Source of the DNA: Ilumatobacteraceae bacterium
Lineage (GTDB): Bacteria > Actinomycetota > Acidimicrobiia > Acidimicrobiales > Ilumatobacteraceae
Direction of reading: 5' to 3'
NCBI GenBank assembly: GCA_009691255.1
Contig: SHUT01000011.1
Coordinates: 1 to 48,718, forward strand
DNA: 48,718 bases
The translations under genes and the position numbers were made by a program. This document shows, one piece after another, positions 13,348 through 22,275 of the stretch. The notes below the pieces were generated by a model, which was not told where the DNA came from, did not search any database, and saw only the letters and a program-made list of their open reading frames with translations. Each line of letters opens with the position of its first letter. Positions within the stretch are counted from its first letter, which is position 1.

Positions 13348-14206
13348 ACCGCCCACAGTGCATGGGCTCGTCGTTGTAGACAAGCCAGCAGGCATGACAA
13401 GTCACGACGCAGTGGCGCAATTGCGGAGATCATTATCAGAAAAACGAATCGGACACGCCGGCACACTTGACCCCGATGCAACTGGAGTTTTAGTTGTTGG
13501 AGTCGGCAACGCCACACGCTTGATGCGTTTTTTAAGCGACATGGACAAGCAATACATCGCCCAAATTGTTTTTGGGTCAGAAACGGACACGCTTGATAGT
13601 GCTGGAATGACTACTAAAACTTACGAGATGTCGGCGCCTGATGTTGTTGAGACACAGCGAGTCATAGACGCGAAATTTATCGGCGATATTTTGCAAATAC
13701 CTCCAATGGTGTCTGCTATTCGGGTTGACGGCAAACGACTTCATCAGTTAGCGCGCGAGGGAGTAGAAGTCGATCGTGCGCCACGACCCGTGCACGTGCA
13801 TCAGTTCACCGTGAGCGCCACAGCCGACCCAATGGTGCTGCAGGCAAGTGTTAGATGTGGCTCCGGAACATATATTCGTTCCTTGGGTGCAGACCTTGGA
13901 CAAGCACTTGGTGGGGGAGCACATATTCGAGCATTACGTCGCACGAGTGTTGGTCCGTTTGTGTTGGCCGATACATGCACTCTTGCTGAGCCATTCCTGC
14001 ATGACGTGTTGATGGCGGTGAGAGGCATGCAACAGGTAACGCTTGATTCTGACGGAATCGACAATGTGTTGTACGGGCGACCACTGCCATCATGGGAAGG
14101 AGATGGTCCGTGGGCCATTCTCAATGTCAACGGAGACTTAATCGCCGTATACGAGAGATGGAAGAACGATATGGCAAAGCCGACAGTTGTGTTTGGTGGC
14201 AGGTAG
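13334..14206 (+). CDS. truB: tRNA pseudouridine-55 synthase
   Basis: The enzyme isomerises U55 in the T-loop of tRNAs. Starting at ATG 13334 (MARRKPP) gives 290 residues. The longer in-frame extension runs through rbfA sequence and is not plausible. Motifs: GLVVVDKPAGMTSHDAV, GHAGTLDPDATGVLVV with the catalytic aspartate in LDPDA, and CGSGTYIRSLGADLG. A PUA-like C-terminal region follows (to GPWAILNVNGDLIAVY). It overlaps rbfA by 14 nt and precedes ribF by 10 nt. Confidence 0.96.
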   Translation: MARRKPPTVHGLVVVDKPAGMTSHDAVAQLRRSLSEKRIGHAGTLDPDATGVLVVGVGNATRLMRFLSDMDKQYIAQIVFGSETDTLDSAGMTTKTYEMSAPDVVETQRVIDAKFIGDILQIPPMVSAIRVDGKRLHQLAREGVEVDRAPRPVHVHQFTVSATADPMVLQASVRCGSGTYIRSLGADLGQALGGGAHIRALRRTSVGPFVLADTCTLAEPFLHDVLMAVRGMQQVTLDSDGIDNVLYGRPLPSWEGDGPWAILNVNGDLIAVYERWKNDMAKPTVVFGGR

Positions 14207-14216
14207 GTTCGTGGCG

Positions 14217-15176
14217 ATGCAAATAGTCACTGACCTCACCGCATGCGCATGGCCTGGCCAACGCAGTGTGCTCACCATTGGCGCATATGACGGAGTTCAT
14301 TTGGGTCATCTTGCTGTTATTGAACATGTTAAAACTCGTGCTGCACAATTGGATGCCAAAAGTGTGGTTGTGACTTTTGACAGACATCCAGCAAGTGTGG
14401 TTAGGCCAGAGTCAGCGCCGCCACTGCTCTCAAATCTAGATCAACGACTCGAACTTTTGGAAGCAACCGGCATTGAAGCTGTGGTTGTGGTGTCTTTTGA
14501 TGATTTGCAGGCTCATGAAACACCTGTTGATTTTGTTCGCCGAGTTCTTGTGGATGCACTTGCTGCCAAAGCTGTCATCGTCGGAAGTGATTTTCACTTC
14601 GGATATATGCGACAGGGAAACCTCACGCTTCTGCATGAGATGGGAGCGCGGTACGACTTCGTATCCGAGCCACTTGTTCTAGTGCCACGTCAAGACGGTG
14701 TCGACGAACCGATAAGTTCAACAGCAATACGTCGTGCATTGGCAGGCGGGGAAATCGAAACAGCACACCGTCTGCTTGGCCGTTTCTACGAAGTGCGGGG
14801 TGTTGTGGTGACGGGCGACAAACGGGGCAGAACAATAGGTTTCCCAACTGCCAATGTCGAAGTGCCGCGGTCAATGTGCATGCCAGCAGATGGTGTTTAT
14901 GCCGCAATGTATAAGCGCGCTGATGGCTCTGAGTATCGATGTGCTGTCAATATTGGTCGTCGACCAACTTTTTATACGAACGCAGATCATTCGTTGCTTG
15001 AGGCGTATTTGCTGGATTTCGATGGCGACCTTTATGGCGAAGCGGCATCAGTAAAGTTCGTTGCCTTTTTGCGTAGTGAGCGCCAGTTTGACGGCCTTGA
15101 CTCGTTGCGCGCTCAACTTGATATTGACATTGAGCATGCGCGCAAGGCGCTAGCTAATCACCAGTCGTCACACTAA
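14217..15176 (+). CDS. ribF: Bifunctional riboflavin kinase / FAD synthetase
   Basis: The protein phosphorylates riboflavin to FMN and adenylates FMN to FAD. ATG 14217 gives 319 residues. AGGTAGG about 9 nt upstream is a suitable ribosome-binding site, and a GTG at 14211 is the alternative. The N-terminal FAD synthetase domain shows GAYDGVHLGH (nucleotidyltransferase HxGH), FDRHP and SSTAIRRAL. The C-terminal kinase domain shows GRTIGFPTANV and the conserved AVNIGRRPTF and EAYLLDFDGDLYG. It is the third gene of the rbfA operon. Its 3' end overlaps the convergent fbiC 3' end by 23 bp. Confidence 0.96.
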   Translation: MQIVTDLTACAWPGQRSVLTIGAYDGVHLGHLAVIEHVKTRAAQLDAKSVVVTFDRHPASVVRPESAPPLLSNLDQRLELLEATGIEAVVVVSFDDLQAHETPVDFVRRVLVDALAAKAVIVGSDFHFGYMRQGNLTLLHEMGARYDFVSEPLVLVPRQDGVDEPISSTAIRRALAGGEIETAHRLLGRFYEVRGVVVTGDKRGRTIGFPTANVEVPRSMCMPADGVYAAMYKRADGSEYRCAVNIGRRPTFYTNADHSLLEAYLLDFDGDLYGEAASVKFVAFLRSERQFDGLDSLRAQLDIDIEHARKALANHQSSH

Positions 15177-17565
15177 ACATTTTGTATCCAGTCGTTCGCT
15201 GACGAAGTGTGCGTCGCAGTGGCGCCACGATTTCTCCAAAGCGCCCTTCTGTCATCGCTTGGCCGTGGTTTGCGCCGGCTGCGCGAGAGATGTTTTCATC
15301 CATCAATGTTCCGCCCAGATCATTACAGCCAGCTTGTAGAAGTTGAGCTGCTCCGGCTGTTCCGATTTTTACCCACGACACTTGAACATTGTCGATAAGG
15401 CCATGATATGCAAGACGCCCGATGGAATGCATTAAAACTGTCTCGCGAAAAGTCGGGCCGCGACGTGCTTTGCGTTGCAGGTAGATCGGCGATGCCATGT
15501 GTACGAACGGCAGCGGAATGAACTCCGTGAATCCGCCGGTCTCTTTTTGCAGATCACGAGTAACAATGATGTGACGAGCCCATGATTCGGGGTGTTCGAT
15601 ACTGCCAAACATGATGGTGATGTTTGATCCGAGCCCAATGAGATGTGCTTGGCGATGACACTCCAGCCATTCTTCCGTATTTACTTTGTCGGAGCACAAG
15701 ATTGCGCGTACTTCGTCATCAAGGATTTCGGCTGCTGTGCCTGGCAATGAAGCCAGCCCAGCCTCTTTGAGGCGCAGCAGATAATTACGCAAAGGCTCTT
15801 CGTTGCGTCGCGCACCTTCGGTGACTTCGAGTGCCGTAAAGCCGTGCACATGCATGTCGGGTACTGCTGCTTTTATGGCACGCGTAACGTCAATGTAATA
15901 ATCGCCGTCAAAGTCAGGGTGAATACCGCCCTGCAACGTGACCTCGGTTGCTCCCAACACAGATGCTTCTTGGGCGCGTTGGGCAATATCGTCAAGTGTC
16001 AACAAGTAAGGCGTGCCACGTAAATTAAGGCTTAGTGGCCCTTTAGAAAAACCACAGAATCGACATTTGTAAGTACACACATTTGTGTAATTGATATTGC
16101 GGTTATGTACCCATGTCACATCATCGCCAACGACATCGCGACGCAATTGGTCGGCGTATTGGGCAATTGCGCCAACTTCTGGTCCACGTGCGCCAAACAA
16201 GGCAACGATCTCTTCCTGACCAATTTCTTGGCCGCTGCGATGTCCTTGAATGATCTCGGCAATTCTGCCCGTGGCTCGTGATGTTGGAAGAGGGATGAGC
16301 GTCAATGGCTTCACATTGGAGCCTGAATACCATTGCGTTGATTTGTGCCCAACCAATACGACTTCAGCACCATCTTGCACCACATCGGCAGCCGTTACTT
16401 TTTCGGGCCACAATGCACCTGGGTCATCACGACCTAATCCTTGGGCGTCACTGCGGTCCATCACGGCAAATCGCAAGGCCTCATCTAGAAACCGTGTTGG
16501 TTGACGAACGTATTCTGGATAAATCGTGAGGCGCGGCGCCAAAACATGACCACGTTGTTCTGTCACTTCTTGCAGGCGTGCAAGCGCTGGCCATGGTCGT
16601 TCAGGATTCACATGGTCGGCTGTGACTGGCGAAACACCGCCCCAATCATCGATGCCAGCATCAAGTAGTACTCCAAAATCGTCAGACAAGTTTGGTGGCG
16701 CTTGCAGATGAATGCTCGACGGCAAAAGCACTCGTGCCGCAGCAATTGACCACAAGAACTCGTCTTGGGGACAGGCAGGCGAATTTTGCATCCCGGTGCG
16801 CGCCTTTGGCAAAAAGTTCTGCACGATGACTTCTTGCACGTGGCCGTATTGCTGATGCACAGCAGCAATCAAAGACAATGCTTCGATGCGGTCAGCCCGG
16901 TTTTCTCCGATGCCGACCAAGATCCCGGTCGTAAACGGAATCTGTAACTCGCCAGCGTTACACAGAGTGTCGATGCGTCGTTGTGATTGCTTGTCGGGGG
17001 CTCCTTTGTGACAATCCAAATCGTCGCGTAACGACTCGAGCATCATTCCTTGCGATGGCGAGACTGATCGCAACATTGTTAACTCATCTCGATACAGAGC
17101 GCCTGCATTTGCATGAGGCAGCAGGCCTGTCTCGTGTATTACGAGTTGAGCCATGTCGTGCAGGTAATGCACGGTGGAATCAAACCCATTGGCACGAAGC
17201 CAGTCCGCTGCAATCTCGTAACGCAGTTCTGGTCGTTCCCCAAGCGTGAAGAGTGCTTCATGACATCCAGTGCGAGCACCTTGACGCGCAATTGCCAAGA
17301 CATCTTCAGCAGTGAGGTACGGCTTTGCAAGGCGCGCTGGTGGCTGAGCAAAGGTGCAGTATCCGCATTTATCGCGACACAGCATTGTGAGTGGGATAAA
17401 TACTTTGGGAGAAAACGTGACCTGGGTTCCAAACTCCGCATCACGAATCTGACGTGCGCATTGGAGCAATTCATCTAGTGACGCATGGGCCACAAAATCC
17501 AGCACAGACGGTTCTATAGGAAACGACTGCATGAGTTCGGTACGCGAAAACTGGCTCGATAACAC
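15154..17565 (-). CDS. fbiC: FO synthase, CofG-CofH fusion (FbiC)
   Basis: FbiC makes 7,8-didemethyl-8-hydroxy-5-deazariboflavin (Fo), the chromophore of coenzyme F420, from 5-amino-6-ribitylaminouracil and tyrosine using two radical-SAM centres. The N-terminal CofG half has MLCRDKCGYCTF (Cx3Cx2C). The C-terminal CofH half has NVCTYKCRFCGFSKG. Length is about 803 residues, normal for the fused actinobacterial form. The frame is open to a TTG at 17577, but GGAGGG (17570-17575) sits 4 nt before a GTG at 17565, which I take as the start. It is the last gene of the reverse operon after ribE and the chorismate mutase fusion, with 141 bp upstream that may hold its own control region. The stop lies inside the 3' end of convergent ribF. 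Confidence 0.95.
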   Translation of the reverse strand: MLSSQFSRTELMQSFPIEPSVLDFVAHASLDELLQCARQIRDAEFGTQVTFSPKVFIPLTMLCRDKCGYCTFAQPPARLAKPYLTAEDVLAIARQGARTGCHEALFTLGERPELRYEIAADWLRANGFDSTVHYLHDMAQLVIHETGLLPHANAGALYRDELTMLRSVSPSQGMMLESLRDDLDCHKGAPDKQSQRRIDTLCNAGELQIPFTTGILVGIGENRADRIEALSLIAAVHQQYGHVQEVIVQNFLPKARTGMQNSPACPQDEFLWSIAAARVLLPSSIHLQAPPNLSDDFGVLLDAGIDDWGGVSPVTADHVNPERPWPALARLQEVTEQRGHVLAPRLTIYPEYVRQPTRFLDEALRFAVMDRSDAQGLGRDDPGALWPEKVTAADVVQDGAEVVLVGHKSTQWYSGSNVKPLTLIPLPTSRATGRIAEIIQGHRSGQEIGQEEIVALFGARGPEVGAIAQYADQLRRDVVGDDVTWVHNRNINYTNVCTYKCRFCGFSKGPLSLNLRGTPYLLTLDDIAQRAQEASVLGATEVTLQGGIHPDFDGDYYIDVTRAIKAAVPDMHVHGFTALEVTEGARRNEEPLRNYLLRLKEAGLASLPGTAAEILDDEVRAILCSDKVNTEEWLECHRQAHLIGLGSNITIMFGSIEHPESWARHIIVTRDLQKETGGFTEFIPLPFVHMASPIYLQRKARRGPTFRETVLMHSIGRLAYHGLIDNVQVSWVKIGTAGAAQLLQAGCNDLGGTLMDENISRAAGANHGQAMTEGRFGEIVAPLRRTLRQRTTGYKMFSVTTGD

Positions 17566-17619
17566 AACACCCTCCAAAGGGTTGAGAAACGGATCGGTTA
17601 TATGCCAGTGCCGGTCGAA

Positions 17620-17652
17620 ATCTCAGCCGTATGTAAGAGGTTCGGTTGAGAT
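17620..17652. promoter_or_regulatory. Imperfect inverted repeat upstream of fbiC
   Basis: Arms 17620-17628 (ATCTCAGCC) and 17644-17652 (GGTTGAGAT) match at 8 of 9 positions around a 15-nt loop. A further GGTTGAGA copy lies at 17580-17587 near the fbiC ribosome-binding site. It could be an operator or an RNA structure. Function is not established. Confidence 0.25.
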
Positions 17653-17706
17653 CCCCGAGAGACCGTGCACCTGTACTGTATCTCGTTGGCGGTGACTTGG
17701 GTGTTG

Positions 17707-18477
17707 TCAGGCGTCGCCCGAGAGTGCTTCGAACATGGCCCGTACATTGTGGCTGTTCATGGGCACTCGGTGGCCTGTTCGACTGATAAAGCCCAGTTGT
17801 ACGCCAGTCGCTGGATCAAGAACCGTAAAGACTTGCTCATGTCCATCGGAGTCAACGATGACATCGGTGAGTCTGGGTACGCCAGCAGCGTCAAGGGCGT
17901 CACGGGTGAATCCGGCACTGAGCACTTCAATCGCAATGTGTTGCACGCCAGAACCGTGGGCGCTCAGCTGTGCTGCAACTGCCGGGTCGTCGCCTGGACC
18001 AACTAGAACCACGGTGACACCACCAGCTTCGGCTGACACGATGTTGACATCGTCGGTTTGCTGAATACGAAAACCCATGTCGGAGAAAAATTTTTGAGCG
18101 GCAACCAAATCGACGACGGCTACTACCACATGGTCGATGCGGCAGGCTACGGTGTCAAGTTCGGAACGCACAACGGAGTCAGCGTCTTTTTTCGGTGCAG
18201 ACTCTTGGCGACTGTCGGCAACTTCGATGCGGTGTGCCTCGGCGAGCAATGTGCGAAAAAGATGTTCAGCAAAGTCGGCATCAACTCCTTGGTCAATTGC
18301 CCATTGGCGTCGACTCGATAGTACGTCACGCACTCGTGCTGGCTGAATGACCGTGGAACCTGTTTTAGCTTTGAGCCGAGCCACATCAGCGCAAATACGC
18401 AAGCGCTGAGCCAAGAGATCGACAATGGCTCGATCGATGTCGTCAATTTGGGATCGGAGGTCGTCTAGTGATGCCAT
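17707..18477 (-). CDS. Chorismate mutase (AroQ) fused to a VOC/HPPD-like domain
   Basis: The 256-residue product starts at ATG 18477; a longer frame would run into ribE. Residues 1-88 are an all-helical AroQ chorismate mutase (LDDLRSQIDDIDRAIVDLL, RLRICADVARLKAKTG, IQPARVRDVL, AEHLFRTLLAEAHRIE), which converts chorismate to prephenate. After a polar linker, residues 113-235 form a vicinal-oxygen-chelate domain: IDHVVVAVVDL with His116, GVQHIAIEV with His180, and EQVFTVLDPATGVQLGF, resembling the N-terminal half of 4-hydroxyphenylpyruvate dioxygenase. The third metal ligand (a Glu near 229-230) appears to be Gly/Phe, so the domain may bind a ligand rather than catalyse. It lies 10 nt after ribE and before fbiC. 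Confidence 0.8.
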   Translation of the reverse strand: MASLDDLRSQIDDIDRAIVDLLAQRLRICADVARLKAKTGSTVIQPARVRDVLSSRRQWAIDQGVDADFAEHLFRTLLAEAHRIEVADSRQESAPKKDADSVVRSELDTVACRIDHVVVAVVDLVAAQKFFSDMGFRIQQTDDVNIVSAEAGGVTVVLVGPGDDPAVAAQLSAHGSGVQHIAIEVLSAGFTRDALDAAGVPRLTDVIVDSDGHEQVFTVLDPATGVQLGFISRTGHRVPMNSHNVRAMFEALSGDA

Positions 18478-18487
18478 AGATGTATGT

Positions 18488-19051
18488 CTAGTCGTGGTTG
18501 ACGAGTCGCTCAACATGCTTTGCCATCACATCAATTTCGATATTGACGATGTCACCTGCGAGGCGATGCCCCAAAGTGGTGACGTCAACGGTGTGGGGGA
18601 TGACTGCGACATCAAATGTGTCGTCTCCGAGGTGAAACGCCGTGAGGCTAATGCCGTCCACTGTGACTGAACCTTTTTCAACGATGTATCGCATGAGGTC
18701 GCGCGGAATTCGAACAGTCAGTGCTGGCGCAGGCGACACAATGGTTCCAACGGCATCAACATGGCCCAAAACAATATGCCCCCCCAATCGTTCGCCCAGT
18801 GCCATGGGTCGCTCTAGATTGACCGGATCACCAAGTTGCATGGCGCCCAAATTGGTGCGGGAATAGGTTTCTTCGCTGACATCTGCTTCCCACCAGTCTG
18901 GCCCTTGGTCGACCAAAGTAAGACAACATCCATTCACCGCGATCGAGGCACCAAGCGCAGAGCCTTGGAGCACCAGGCTTGCACCGATTCGCAGTCGGGT
19001 TCGGTGCAGCGCCTGGACTGTGCCTAGTTCTTCAACAATCCCTGTGAACAT
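18488..19051 (-). CDS. ribE: Riboflavin synthase, alpha subunit
   Basis: The enzyme dismutates two 6,7-dimethyl-8-ribityllumazines to riboflavin plus 5-amino-6-ribitylaminouracil. The start is at MFTGIVEELG (19051), the invariant N-terminus of the family, giving 187 residues. TAGTAT 7 nt upstream supports it. The two lumazine-binding repeats are visible: SIAVNGCCLTLV and ERPMALGERLGGHIVLGHVDAVG in the first, SVTVDGISLTAF and IPHTVDVTTLGHRLAGDIVNIEIDVMAKHVERL in the second. It leads the reverse operon with the chorismate mutase fusion and fbiC. The by-product ribityl uracil is a substrate of FbiC. Confidence 0.96.
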   Translation of the reverse strand: MFTGIVEELGTVQALHRTRLRIGASLVLQGSALGASIAVNGCCLTLVDQGPDWWEADVSEETYSRTNLGAMQLGDPVNLERPMALGERLGGHIVLGHVDAVGTIVSPAPALTVRIPRDLMRYIVEKGSVTVDGISLTAFHLGDDTFDVAVIPHTVDVTTLGHRLAGDIVNIEIDVMAKHVERLVNHD

Positions 19052-19058
19052 ACCTGAG

Positions 19059-19064
19059 ATACTA
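19059..19064 (-). promoter_or_regulatory. Leaderless-type -10 element of ribE
   Basis: TAGTAT on the reverse strand lies 7 nt before the ribE ATG. No FMN riboswitch consensus is visible in the 137 bp shared with rpsO. Confidence 0.45.
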
Positions 19065-19142
19065 ATCCTGTTTGAGGTTGGAACCATCGGGGGAATACCA
19101 ATAGCCTTGAGATGTCCGTTGGGGTTTCGACTCTGGCGAGAT

Positions 19143-19184
19143 GCTGTTCACAATCCGTGACCAGCGCCCTCCCTTGAAATGAGG
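19143..19184 (+). promoter_or_regulatory. Structured rpsO leader, possible S15 control element
   Basis: GCTGTTCAC (19143-19151) can pair with GTGACCAGC (19157-19165), 8 of 9 pairs with a 5-nt loop. Directly after it, CCTC (19168-19171) can pair with GAGG (19181-19184), the rpsO Shine-Dalgarno sequence. S15 is known to repress its own mRNA through leader structures, so this is a reasonable candidate. No expression evidence. Confidence 0.35.
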
Positions 19185-19188
19185 CAAG

Positions 19189-19443
19189 ATGTCTAAGCAA
19201 GACACAATTGCGGCCCATCGCCAACACGCTACAGACACCGGATCGCCCGATGTCCAGATTGCGTTGCTGACAGACCGTATTAATCAATTAACCGGACACC
19301 TCCAAACGCATCCTAAAGACCACCACAGTCGTCGTGGTCTTTTGATGTTGGTGGGTCGTCGCCGTCGCATGCTTGATTATGTGCGCGATCGTGACGTTGC
19401 TCGCTACCGTGATTTGCTCCAAGAACTCGGCCTTCGCCGATAA
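19189..19443 (+). CDS. rpsO: 30S ribosomal protein S15
   Basis: S15 binds the central domain of 16S rRNA early in 30S assembly. The 84 residues have [26 protein letters not shown], then [22 protein letters not shown] and a final [12 protein letters not shown], all diagnostic. The short C-terminal helix is complete. GAGG five nt before the ATG is the ribosome-binding site. The gene precedes pnp, the classic rpsO-pnp arrangement. Confidence 0.98.
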
Positions 19444-19450
19444 CACATAC

Positions 19451-19547
19451 ACCGCCAGCATCCATTTTGATGTAGTCGGTTGTCAGTGGAGAGTTCCGCA
19501 TAAGGTTGTGCGGGGTTGTCAACTGGGAACCGGCGTGTGCTGGCGGT
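19451..19547 (+). promoter_or_regulatory. Structured rpsO-pnp intergenic RNA / pnp leader
   Basis: ACCGCCAGCA (19451-19460) is perfectly complementary to TGCTGGCGGT (19538-19547). The 3' arm ends just before the pnp ribosome-binding region. Inside are CCGCA/TGCGG (19496-19500 and 19509-19513) nested in GTTCC/GGAAC (19493-19497 and 19526-19530). In enterobacteria a long pnp leader stem is cut by RNase III and then mediates PNPase autoregulation. An equivalent role here is inference. Confidence 0.4.
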
Positions 19548-19566
19548 CAGAGGAAAGGAAATTCCA

Positions 19567-22275
19567 ATGACTGACGCGATTCGCGTGTCTGGCCCCGTGT
19601 CGGGGACTGACAAAACTATTACATTTGAGACCGGGAAATTGGCTCAACAATCACAGGGTGCAGTGGTGGCCTCAATTGGCAAAACCACTGTTCTGGCAAC
19701 TGCCAACGCTGCACGCACGGTGCGTGACGGGATTGATTTCTTCCCGCTCACGATCGACGTCGAAGAGCGTTCTTATGCAGCGGGAAAAATACCTGGCGCA
19801 TTCTTTCGTCGCGAGGGACGTCCATCAGAGCAGGCAATTTTAACCTGCCGTCTGACGGACAGACCATTACGACCCGCGTTCCCAGATGGCTTTCGCAACG
19901 AAGTCCAGGTTGTTCTCACCATTCTTGGTGCGGACATGGAAAATCCACACGACGTCATCTCGATTAACGCAGCGTCTGCTGCATTGATGATCAGCGGTAT
20001 TCCGTTTGATGGCCCGATTGGTGCTGTTCGACTTGCTTATTCGCAAGACGGAACATGGATCGCTCATCCAACATACGACGAAGGCAAAGAAGGAACATTC
20101 GAAATTGTCGTTGCCGGTCGTGAACTTGACAACGGAGACGTTGCGATCATGATGGTCGAAGCAGGCGGAACCGAAAAGAGCTTTGACTACTACGAAGCAG
20201 GCGCACCAAAAGTGTCAGAGACTGTCATCACAGAAGGTCTCGAGGCATCAAAGGTATGGATCAAAGAGTCCATCGCTCTTCAGCGTCAATTGCGCGCCAG
20301 CGTGATTGCGACACATGGTCAAATCGCAGCATTGGCATATACACCAGTGCTTGACTACACGCCAGAAATATTTGAAGCAGTCGAAAAGGTTGCAACATCT
20401 AAGTTGGCAACTGCAGTGACCATCGCGATCAAAGCAGATCGCAATGCAGCAACCGATGCAGCAGCAGACGAGACCGCTAAAGAATTGGTCGGAACATCTG
20501 CAGTGCCTGGACCATTCTTTGGCCAAGAAAAGGCCGTCAAAGAAGCTGTCCGCAGCCTCACCAAAAAAATGGTGCGTAAGCGCGTTGTAGAAGACGGCAT
20601 CCGTATCGATGGTCGGGGTCCACGAGACCTGCGTCCAGTGTCAGCCGAAGTTGGATTGCTCAGCACCGCGCATGGAACCGGATTGTTTCAGCGCGGAGAG
20701 ACTCAAGTGATGAATGTCTGCACGTTGGCAATGCCCCGCATGAATCAATTGCTCGACACCCTTGGTCCTGATAACCAAAAACGCTATATCCATCATTACA
20801 ACATGGCTCCTTGGGCCAATGGTGAGACAGGTCGCGTTGGTACGCCAAAGCGTCGTGAAATTGGACATGGTGCGCTCGCTGAGCGTGCGTTGTTGCCCGT
20901 TGTTCCGAGTCAAGCAGATTTCTCCTACGTCATCCGTTTGGTGAGTGAAGTATTGGCATCAAATGGTTCGACATCCATGGCATCCGTGTGTTCATCCAGC
21001 CTTTCGCTGATGGACGCAGGCGTTCCGATTAAAGCCCCTGTTGCTGGAATTGCAATGGGACTTATTTACGCCGAAGGAAAATACCTTACATTGACAGACA
21101 TTCTCGGAGCAGAAGATGCTTTTGGAGACATGGACTTCAAAGTTGCTGGTACATCCGATGCTGTAACTGCTTTGCAACTTGACACCAAAATTGATGGAAT
21201 CCCTGCTGACGTTCTTGGTGCAGCTTTGCAACAAGCACGTGACGCGCGTATGGCGATCTTGGATGTCATGAACAAGACATTGGCAACTGCTCGCGACACT
21301 GTTGCTGAGTCGGCACCAAAGATTGTCACAATCACAATTCCGCTCGACAAGGTGGGAGAAGTCATCGGACCAAAGGGCAAGGTCATCAATACCATCCAGC
21401 AAGAGACCGGAGCAGAAATTGCCGTCGATGACGATGGTTCTGTCGGAATTGTCACGATTGGTTCTCCAGACAACGCCAAAGTAGAAGAAGCAAGGGCCAG
21501 AATTCTCGCTATCGTCGATCCACCAACAGCAGATCTTGGTGGCATTTATAACGGTCGTGTTGTCAGCATCACAAAGTTTGGTGCTTTTATTAACATTCTT
21601 CCTGGTCGCGACGGACTGATTCATATCAGCAAGTTGGGCAATGGACAGCGCATTAATAACGTCGAAGATGTATTGACACTTGGTGACGAGATCATGGTGC
21701 GCGTCGAAGACATTGACGACAAGGGCAAGGTCAGCCTTGTGCCGGTCGGTCCTGACGGCGAGTCACTTGGGGGCAGTGGATCATCTGAGCCACGTCGCGA
21801 ACGCGAAAGACGCACAGACAGAAATGATCGCGGTGGCGAGCAAGCAGCTCCGCCCGAGGTTGGCGGTGTCTACACCGGTCGTGTTGTCAGCATCACAAAG
21901 TTCGGTGCTTTCGTCAACATCAGTCCTGGTCTCGACGGCCTCGTGCACATCAGCAAGTTGGGCAATGGTCAACGCGTGAATCGCGTTGAAGACGTACTTG
22001 ACGTTGGTGACGAAATGACTGTTCGTGTTGAGGGTGTTGATGCTCGGGGCAAGGTCAGCCTGACACCCGTAGGGGCAGATGGACAAGACCTAGCAGGGTC
22101 ACCTGATGAGCCACGCCAGGATCGCGGAAACAGTGCGCCAAGCGCCGCTGTCGCTGTGTCTTTTGAGGACGAATTTGACGCTGAACTGCGCTCTGAATTC
22201 GGAGACCTTGGACCAGGCGGACAAGCTGGTGGTAACGAACGCGAAGGTGGTGGCGGCGGTCGCCGTCATCGCTAA
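19567..22275 (+). CDS. pnp: Polynucleotide phosphorylase with two S1 domains
   Basis: PNPase is a phosphorolytic 3'-5' exoribonuclease. The start at 19567 (MTDAIRV) follows AGGAAAGGAAA and gives 902 residues. Order: first RNase PH-like domain (about 10-230), helical linker, catalytic second RNase PH-like domain (about 330-560) with [12 protein letters not shown] and a [19 protein letters not shown] segment, KH domain (about 583-650, with the loop [11 protein letters not shown]), then two S1 domains at about 659-730 and 767-838. The usual protein has one S1 domain and about 700-750 residues. The S1 copies are nearly identical ([12 protein letters not shown] in both) and joined by an arginine-rich linker. 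The tail is glycine-rich and ends RRHR. Confidence 0.97.
21541..22079 (+). repeat. In-frame tandem duplication of the PNPase S1 domain
   Basis: Two copies are offset by 324 bp (108 codons). An identical 27-base run starts at 21552 and recurs at 21876, and other long matches follow ([10 protein letters not shown] in both proteins). Low silent divergence in part of the copies suggests recent duplication or gene conversion. Confidence 0.85.

Follow-up and report, generated by a model that had tools for sequence, protein, structure and literature searches.

A sole chorismate mutase with an apparently disarmed dioxygenase-type domain, encoded between riboflavin and F420 genes in Ilumatobacteraceae

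Chorismate mutase (CM) is the branch-point enzyme at the entry to phenylalanine and tyrosine. Why is it encoded in fusion with a VOC domain and flanked by genes for riboflavin synthase (ribE) and Fo synthase (fbiC)? This question is raised by a 48,718-nucleotide (nt) stretch of contig SHUT01000011.1 (assembly GCA_009691255.1) from an Ilumatobacteraceae bacterium, hereafter the window. A first-pass annotation had placed riboflavin synthase, a CM/VOC fusion, and FbiC in that order on one strand, and Pfam and NCBIfam profiles bore this out, on the minus strand. It had further proposed that the three genes balance the supply of both Fo substrates. In our analysis, the striking part of the locus is a disarmed domain on the only CM found, rather than an Fo supply line. 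The answer would bear on a possible link between the tyrosine, flavin, and F420 pathways of uncultured freshwater actinobacteria.

The fusion lies at 17707..18516 (minus strand), as delimited by its open reading frame, Pfam, NCBIfam, and alignment with homologues, and measures 269 amino acids from the first ATG. Pfam matched CM_2 at 76.4 bits (cut-off 27), Glyoxalase_4 at 35.5 (27), and Glyoxalase at 29.2 (20.6). The AroQ-type CM domain itself (CM_2) spans 18223..18459 (minus strand) and matched the fold of 1ecm with Z 12.6. We aligned the window protein with those of 78 of 80 named loci (alignment A2; L105 and L169 dropped); these were the best 80 of 146 loci found, and so the set leans to close relatives. 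A separate alignment (A1) comprised the window protein and 24 of 32 other fusions. Residues R21, R38, K49, Q58, R61, and E98 were invariant in the CM domain of all 79 aligned fusions; of these, R21, R38, K49, R61, and E98 would correspond to the catalytic residues of E. coli CM (three Arg, one Lys, and a Gln/Glu). Residue 94 (18235-18237), which by eye falls at what is presumably an active-site Ser of the E. coli enzyme, is Ala in the window protein alone; the remaining 78 of the 79 aligned fusions have Thr there.

To place the fusion among its relatives, we used a family set of 61 genomes, the label Ilumatobacteraceae following named records, some of which are also labelled acIV. Exactly one CM_2 match was present in 59 of them, fused in 39 and matched in the CM part alone in 20; no genome had two, and AroH-type CM_1 was found in 0 of 61. 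As far as found, the fusion is thus the only CM in the cells that carry it, and it must therefore feed all phenylalanine and tyrosine synthesis. Prephenate dehydratase was detected in 52 of the 61 genomes and prephenate dehydrogenase, over its cut-off, in 56. Neither exceeded its cut-off in the window's own assembly, which is 84.6% complete; both did in its three genus mates.

This single-copy pattern also bears on whether the CM domain could instead be an isochorismate-pyruvate lyase or a 4-amino-4-deoxychorismate mutase. The best NCBIfam match of the fusion was the CM-like model TIGR01803, whose members we take to be PchB and PapB, at 72.1 bits, slightly under the curated cut-off of 73.35; moreover, PchB was among the best solved-structure relatives in a profile search of the PDB, and a plasmid-borne homologue described below adjoins an aminodeoxychorismate synthase gene. 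However, the domain is the sole CM_2 in 39 of 39 fusion genomes, CM_1 is absent from all 61 genomes, relatives retain prephenate dehydratase and dehydrogenase, and the genes listed from ribF to pnp in the window include none for aminodeoxychorismate or salicylate synthesis. We regard a PchB- or PapB-like activity as very improbable.

The remainder of the fusion is a single VOC domain with a C-terminal helix (17710..18141, minus strand), which profiles, an AlphaFold 2 (AF2) model, alignment, and a tree likened to 4-hydroxyphenylpyruvate dioxygenase (HPPD) and hydroxymandelate synthase. The AF2 model, built from the 79 sequences, has a helical domain at residues 17-99 and the VOC fold with its C-terminal helix at 126-265 (mean pLDDT 70.9). 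In VIA structure comparison, HPPD and hydroxymandelate synthase led with Z 15.5 to 14, and methylmalonyl-CoA epimerases (MCE) stood near 12.5. Structures 3zgj and 1cjx aligned through the catalytic HPPD domain as far as model residue 269, with Z 14.8 for 3zgj over model residues 121-269. The best PDB profile match over the VOC domain was the catalytic part of hydroxymandelate synthase 2r5v, over residues 170-264 (whole-profile E-value 1.8e-11). Finally, hhalign spanned 143 columns of the HPPD catalytic domain, reaching the C-terminal helix, compared with 90 for MCE, in the first half, and 93 for the HPPD N-domain.

HPPD binds its iron through His, His, and Glu. At the position of the third ligand, 242, the 79 aligned fusions carry Gly in 64 cases (including the window protein), Ser in 15, and Glu in none, so the 2-His-1-Glu site of HPPD and hydroxymandelate synthase is incomplete throughout. 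The first histidine, H129, was kept in 79 of 79; H193 was kept in 75 of 79 and replaced by Gln in the other four, and by Arg in one of another 33 fusions. Residues H226, E227, Q228, and Q240 were conserved in all 79. The fusion scored only 27.1 bits against the HPPD model TIGR01263, whose cut-off is 277. Because the Glu ligand is lost, the VOC domain is probably no dioxygenase any more, judging by its residues.

Several results weigh against deriving the domain from the catalytic half of an HPPD-type enzyme, or against its inactivity. The hhalign E-value was better for MCE (3.8e-9 vs. 7.8e-8), and Foldseek placed MCE-like structures first. Seven of the nine VIA rows at Z of at least 14 aligned to the N-terminal, non-catalytic HPPD domain, and the window protein's weak HPPD-model match covered model positions 2-134; the fold ranking therefore fails to single out the catalytic domain. 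Confidence in the AF2 model is moderate, and branches in the VOC tree are long. A domain with a purely structural role would have no need of H129 or H193, yet the first is always and the second mostly retained, and the invariant E227 could serve as another ligand. An HPPD-like domain is the better-supported reading, though not an undisputed one. Methylmalonyl-CoA epimerase as the function of the domain was rejected at 36.2 bits against a TIGR03081 cut-off of 114.95, although the domain does resemble MCE in its first half. We note that in G091, from the window's genus, the HPPD model also matches at a site apart from the fusion, in what looks like an MCE.

The same conserved residues leave some room for a VOC domain that is still an enzyme, using the two histidines together with water, E227, or Q240 to act on an arylpyruvate or on some compound derived from chorismate. 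Further encouragement comes from Sinorhizobium meliloti T073, whose plasmid accessoryA encodes a nearly full-length CM/VOC homologue (WP_088196659.1) with 35% identity and the same domain order. Its VOC domain retains His, His, and Glu (the last in IQIEIISR), and its best NCBIfam match is the HPPD model over positions 150-264, the catalytic half, at 93.5 bits (cut-off 277). The gene lies in the order pabB, CM/VOC, prephenate dehydrogenase, aminotransferase, with peptide synthetases on the pabB side, a cluster that to us resembles those for p-aminophenylalanine. By contrast, Glu is absent from the ligand position in all 79 aligned fusions, H193 is replaceable, and no aminotransferase or oxidoreductase gene lies between the window's three genes. 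We therefore consider a surviving VOC activity in the actinobacterial fusions improbable, if less so than a PchB-like mutase domain.

Other armed relatives stand alone. A tblastn search of 72,556 plasmid records returned 25 that matched the fusion, of which only the Sinorhizobium record reached at least 80% coverage. For standalone VOC relatives, 49 records matched, and in the four plasmids opened the Glu and nearby peptide synthetases were present in 4 of 4 and an aminotransferase in 3 of 4; these VOC domains possibly serve arylglycine supply. The four are single-domain VOC proteins resembling HPPD and hydroxymandelate synthase, on plasmids of Bradyrhizobium, Vibrio, Paraburkholderia, and Rhizobium (L276-L279). 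We built a midpoint-rooted VOC tree from 12 of the 79 aligned fusions, the Sinorhizobium homologue, 16 HPPD C-domains, 7 of 16 HPPD N-domains, four standalone VOCs, and 12 MCE-like rows, the last picked by HPPD-model match and length and not by the MCE model. Among these five kinds of VOC domain, the fused ones, including that of Sinorhizobium, formed one group (97/84), with a long branch leading to the actinobacterial fused domains. Most simply, the actinobacterial VOC would be a disarmed arylpyruvate-dioxygenase domain.

Taken together, we give about even weight, for and against, to the following explanation: a housekeeping CM carries a disarmed HPPD-type VOC domain as an arylpyruvate-responsive module, in an old neighbourhood of flavin, deazaflavin, and importer genes. 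The AroQ domain would make prephenate for phenylalanine and tyrosine. The VOC domain would have descended from, or be sister to, arylpyruvate dioxygenases of the HPPD/hydroxymandelate-synthase type. It keeps most of the pocket without the iron carboxylate, which would place it well to bind phenylpyruvate and 4-hydroxyphenylpyruvate, products of prephenate and substrates of that dioxygenase class, and to signal to the mutase. It is most likely a binding and oligomerization module through which 4-hydroxyphenylpyruvate, phenylpyruvate, or a related product may tune the mutase. ACT domains tune enzymes in a comparable way elsewhere, and chorismate mutases are usually controlled via ACT-type or intrinsic sites. 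More tentatively, and with a probability we put clearly below even, a disarmed hydroxymandelate-synthase-type domain, related to an armed secondary-metabolite fusion, senses 4-hydroxyphenylpyruvate or phenylpyruvate, one step past the CM product, and throttles the cell's only CM, with ribE and fbiC expressed from the same locus. If true, this would be a new class of CM control. A dead dioxygenase domain acting as a CM regulator would also be a new case of an enzyme converted into a sensor, one for which a relative with the intact triad is at hand for direct comparison.

What, then, of the flanking genes? The ribE gene (18488..19051, minus strand) encodes the riboflavin synthase alpha chain, from a lineage outside the rib operon; its product has two Lum_binding stretches in Pfam and scored 209.9 bits against the NCBIfam equivalog PRK09289 (cut-off 155), and a tree agreed. 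Its reading frame opens at 19087, and we took the gene as 19051-18488. The CM/VOC start, by comparison with homologues, is probably the ATG at 18477 (256 amino acids), 10 nt past the ribE stop, and whether the two genes overlap or almost touch depends on the start codon chosen. On the other side, fbiC (CofGH; 15154..17577, minus strand; open reading frame and NCBIfam) probably starts at the GTG at 17565, ahead of which we read by eye a Shine-Dalgarno-like GGAGG. Both halves exceed their NCBIfam cut-offs, with 444.8 bits for CofG (213.35) and 507.4 for CofH (374.1), the whole-length CofGH model gives 1002.7 bits, slightly below its cut-off of 1018, and the translation has both CX3CX2C clusters (CRDKCGYC and CTYKCRFC).

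The trio sits in a slot between two plus-strand genes. Its near edge is pnp (19567..22275), which follows rpsO and has dapB beyond it; its far edge is ribF (14217..15176), after rbfA-truB, whose product is presumably the FMN/FAD synthase and whose end overlaps the convergent fbiC by 23 nt. The pnp product ends in two near-alike tandem domains (21538-21750 and 21862-22074), which we take to be S1-type, one copy presumably being usual. The 129-nt gap between CM/VOC and fbiC (17578..17706, minus strand) had no Rfam match, and folding of 17540-17712 was not better than that of shuffles (z -0.54). Riboswitch models, FMN included, gave nothing at the gathering threshold in the window or in 18 relative loci, some of which end near the cluster, and a search of window positions 14000-20000 at E up to 1 returned a sole sub-threshold match, inside ribF. 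Promoter and terminator scans predicted sites about as often as in shuffled sequence. Expression of the three genes is probably shared to some degree.

The first-pass annotation expected relatives to conserve this order, and among close freshwater relatives they do. The fusion is carried by 39 of the 61 family genomes (38 intact, one split across contigs), FbiC (called at E 1e-40) by 49, and RibE (E 1e-10) by 41. All three genes were contiguous in 15 of the 39 fusion genomes, with 128-211 nt between the CM/VOC and fbiC matches. Another four kept the order with longer gaps, three had ribE adjacent with fbiC apart (2.1 kb away in two, on a separate contig in one), four had fbiC downstream in a genome without a ribE match, one had ribE on a separate contig and fbiC 3.4 kb downstream, and one had fbiC upstream. 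The other 11 showed no link, three lacking an fbiC match and eight having fbiC on another contig, some perhaps through contig breaks. Of the 80 named loci, 75 had ribE no more than 300 nt upstream of the fusion, 59 had fbiC no more than 300 nt downstream of it, and 56 had both; of the 24 not fully contiguous, 13 had fbiC at 300-2600 nt, seven end within ~0.8 kb of the fusion, and four differ otherwise (L174, L177, L178, L179). In a class-level search, the fusion appeared in 15 of 23 family genomes and 0 of 273 other genomes, and in a phylum-level search (E 1e-11) a full-length fusion appeared in 6 of 11 and 0 of 385, respectively.

Gene order in this clade has to be read against its background. 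As a control, dapB beyond pnp was found in 35 of 35 loci with enough flanking sequence. Because housekeeping neighbours are equally conserved, conserved order alone is weak evidence for joint function. The genes may simply stay together through conserved order in streamlined genomes, without functional coupling, which the 11 unlinked fusion genomes would also fit. We see this as a real but lesser possibility, and two patterns speak against it: ribE has relocated into the slot, as detailed below, and two relatives (G316 and G305) retain the order even though further genes are interspersed. The variable gaps and the 13 distant fbiC genes also mean that tight co-transcription is not required. Seven of the 13 longer CM/VOC-fbiC gaps were read by eye; in L119, L130, L154, and L157 they contain genes that look MazF-like by their motif. 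A DUF222/HNH insert (Pfam) separates ribE from CM/VOC in L045. Several metagenome-assembled records with this locus, titled as type strains of Bifidobacterium breve, Ferrithrix, or Acidimicrobium (L108, L110, L119, L120, and others), look mislabelled.

The strongest argument for a neighbourhood not due to drift alone comes from ribE. In 12 family genomes, it lies beside ribBA or ribH, as in the usual rib operon. By contrast, the rib loci of six genomes with ribE in the slot (G000, G153, G217, G071, G305, G316) have ribBA-ribH in 6 of 6, ribD in five, and ribE in 0 of 6. In a tree of 38 of 39 rows, the short G161 piece being left out, the slot-type RibE sequences group together with support of 100/99; this group takes in two copies labelled as solo that are also beside pnp, one of them from G298. 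The RibE of G027 and G254 is distant, and its gene lies away from both the slot and the rib genes. We conclude that ribE left the rib operon for the pnp-ribF slot and that the association of CM/VOC with flavin and F420 genes is genuine and of long standing. G161 has ribE and fbiC close together on a fusion-free contig that ends in an ATPase gene, and its fusion contig begins in a permease gene; because these contigs may abut, we dropped it as independent evidence for a ribE-fbiC link. The corresponding FbiC tree, made by a quick method, had 36 rows longer than 560 amino acids.

Does this co-location amount to a joint supply of 5-amino-6-ribitylaminouracil (5-A-RU) and tyrosine to FbiC, with the VOC domain keeping the three fluxes in balance by sensing Fo, flavins, or 4-hydroxyphenylpyruvate? 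The chemistry behind this proposal holds: according to PMC12855090, 5-A-RU is released by riboflavin synthase and is coupled with tyrosine by FbiC. The contiguous trios and the move of ribE into the slot also favour it. However, the same paper has 5-A-RU made through the RibA2 and RibG steps (the mycobacterial names for ribBA and ribD). Riboflavin synthase returns one 5-A-RU per riboflavin, so ribE is not a net source and ribBA and ribD are, and these lie on another contig. The fusion is moreover retained without a detectable fbiC in 3 of 39 genomes and without a ribE match in 11 of 39, and fbiC may lie well apart from it. In fusion-free G298, ribE sits by itself in the pnp-ribF slot, a CM that feeds all phenylalanine and tyrosine serves far more than Fo, presumably a very small tyrosine consumer, and the riboswitch searches found none across the window and 18 relative loci. 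Balanced supply is possible but weak, and we think it unlikely, though not remote. Its co-location component stands, and the VOC domain appears to point to arylpyruvates rather than Fo.

A larger block in relatives suggests where the trio came from. Between pnp and ribF, G316 (L245, 3041-12033) has on one strand ribE, an ABC ATPase, a permease, CM/VOC, an NMT1-type binding protein, and fbiC. G305 (L244) has the same set and order at wider spacing, running to the contig end within fbiC, and G328 has a block of this type spread over two contigs (L243, L225). Four more genomes (G019, G051, G302, G325) have ATPase, permease, CM/VOC, and binding protein without a local ribE or fbiC. The CM/VOC gene was seen nested in the importer set, from permease to NMT1-type binding protein, in L245, L244, L043, and L042. 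The trio is best read as what remained of the pnp | ribE-ABC-permease-CM/VOC-binding protein-fbiC | ribF block after importer loss, a direction of change that we infer. The neighbourhood would thus have shrunk to ribE-CM/VOC-fbiC in small freshwater genomes. The relatives' binding protein gave weak matches only, to SsuA-like and formylaminopyrimidine-binding proteins, and riboflavin as the importer substrate is a guess.

Known systems resemble parts of this arrangement. RibXY combines a permease with a COG0715 binding protein, and PMC4418817 reports that a Chloroflexus member rescued an E. coli riboflavin auxotroph. The relatives' block is like RibXY(Z) in that its ribE neighbours an ATPase, a permease, and a binding protein of COG0715/NMT1 type; it differs in that the importer genes are not in the window and an FMN riboswitch was not found upstream in relatives, some of whose loci end near the cluster. 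The fusion resembles other AroQ enzymes, including those fused to prephenate dehydrogenase, prephenate dehydratase, or DAHP synthase, in its CM_2 domain, conserved Arg/Lys/Glu residues, and 1ecm-like fold, but its partner is a VOC domain; among literature titles and abstract openings, a coverage mostly outside subscription papers, we found no CM/VOC fusion. HPPD and hydroxymandelate synthase (2r5v, 3zgj, 1cjx, 1t47) share the VOC fold, the C-terminal helix, both histidines, and the LLQ-strand Gln, whereas the fusion has one VOC domain rather than two and Gly or Ser rather than Glu as third ligand. The Sinorhizobium protein has the window fusion's domain order and differs in its intact triad and peptide-synthetase cluster. 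Finally, the dehydroshikimate dehydratases QuiC1 and QsuB (5hmq) likewise pair a shikimate-related enzyme with an HPPD-like appendage, although their catalytic domain and pathway, quinate/shikimate use, are different. QsuB offers a precedent for the proposed tuning, since removal of its HPPD-like domain altered both product inhibition and oligomer state (PMC7442255).

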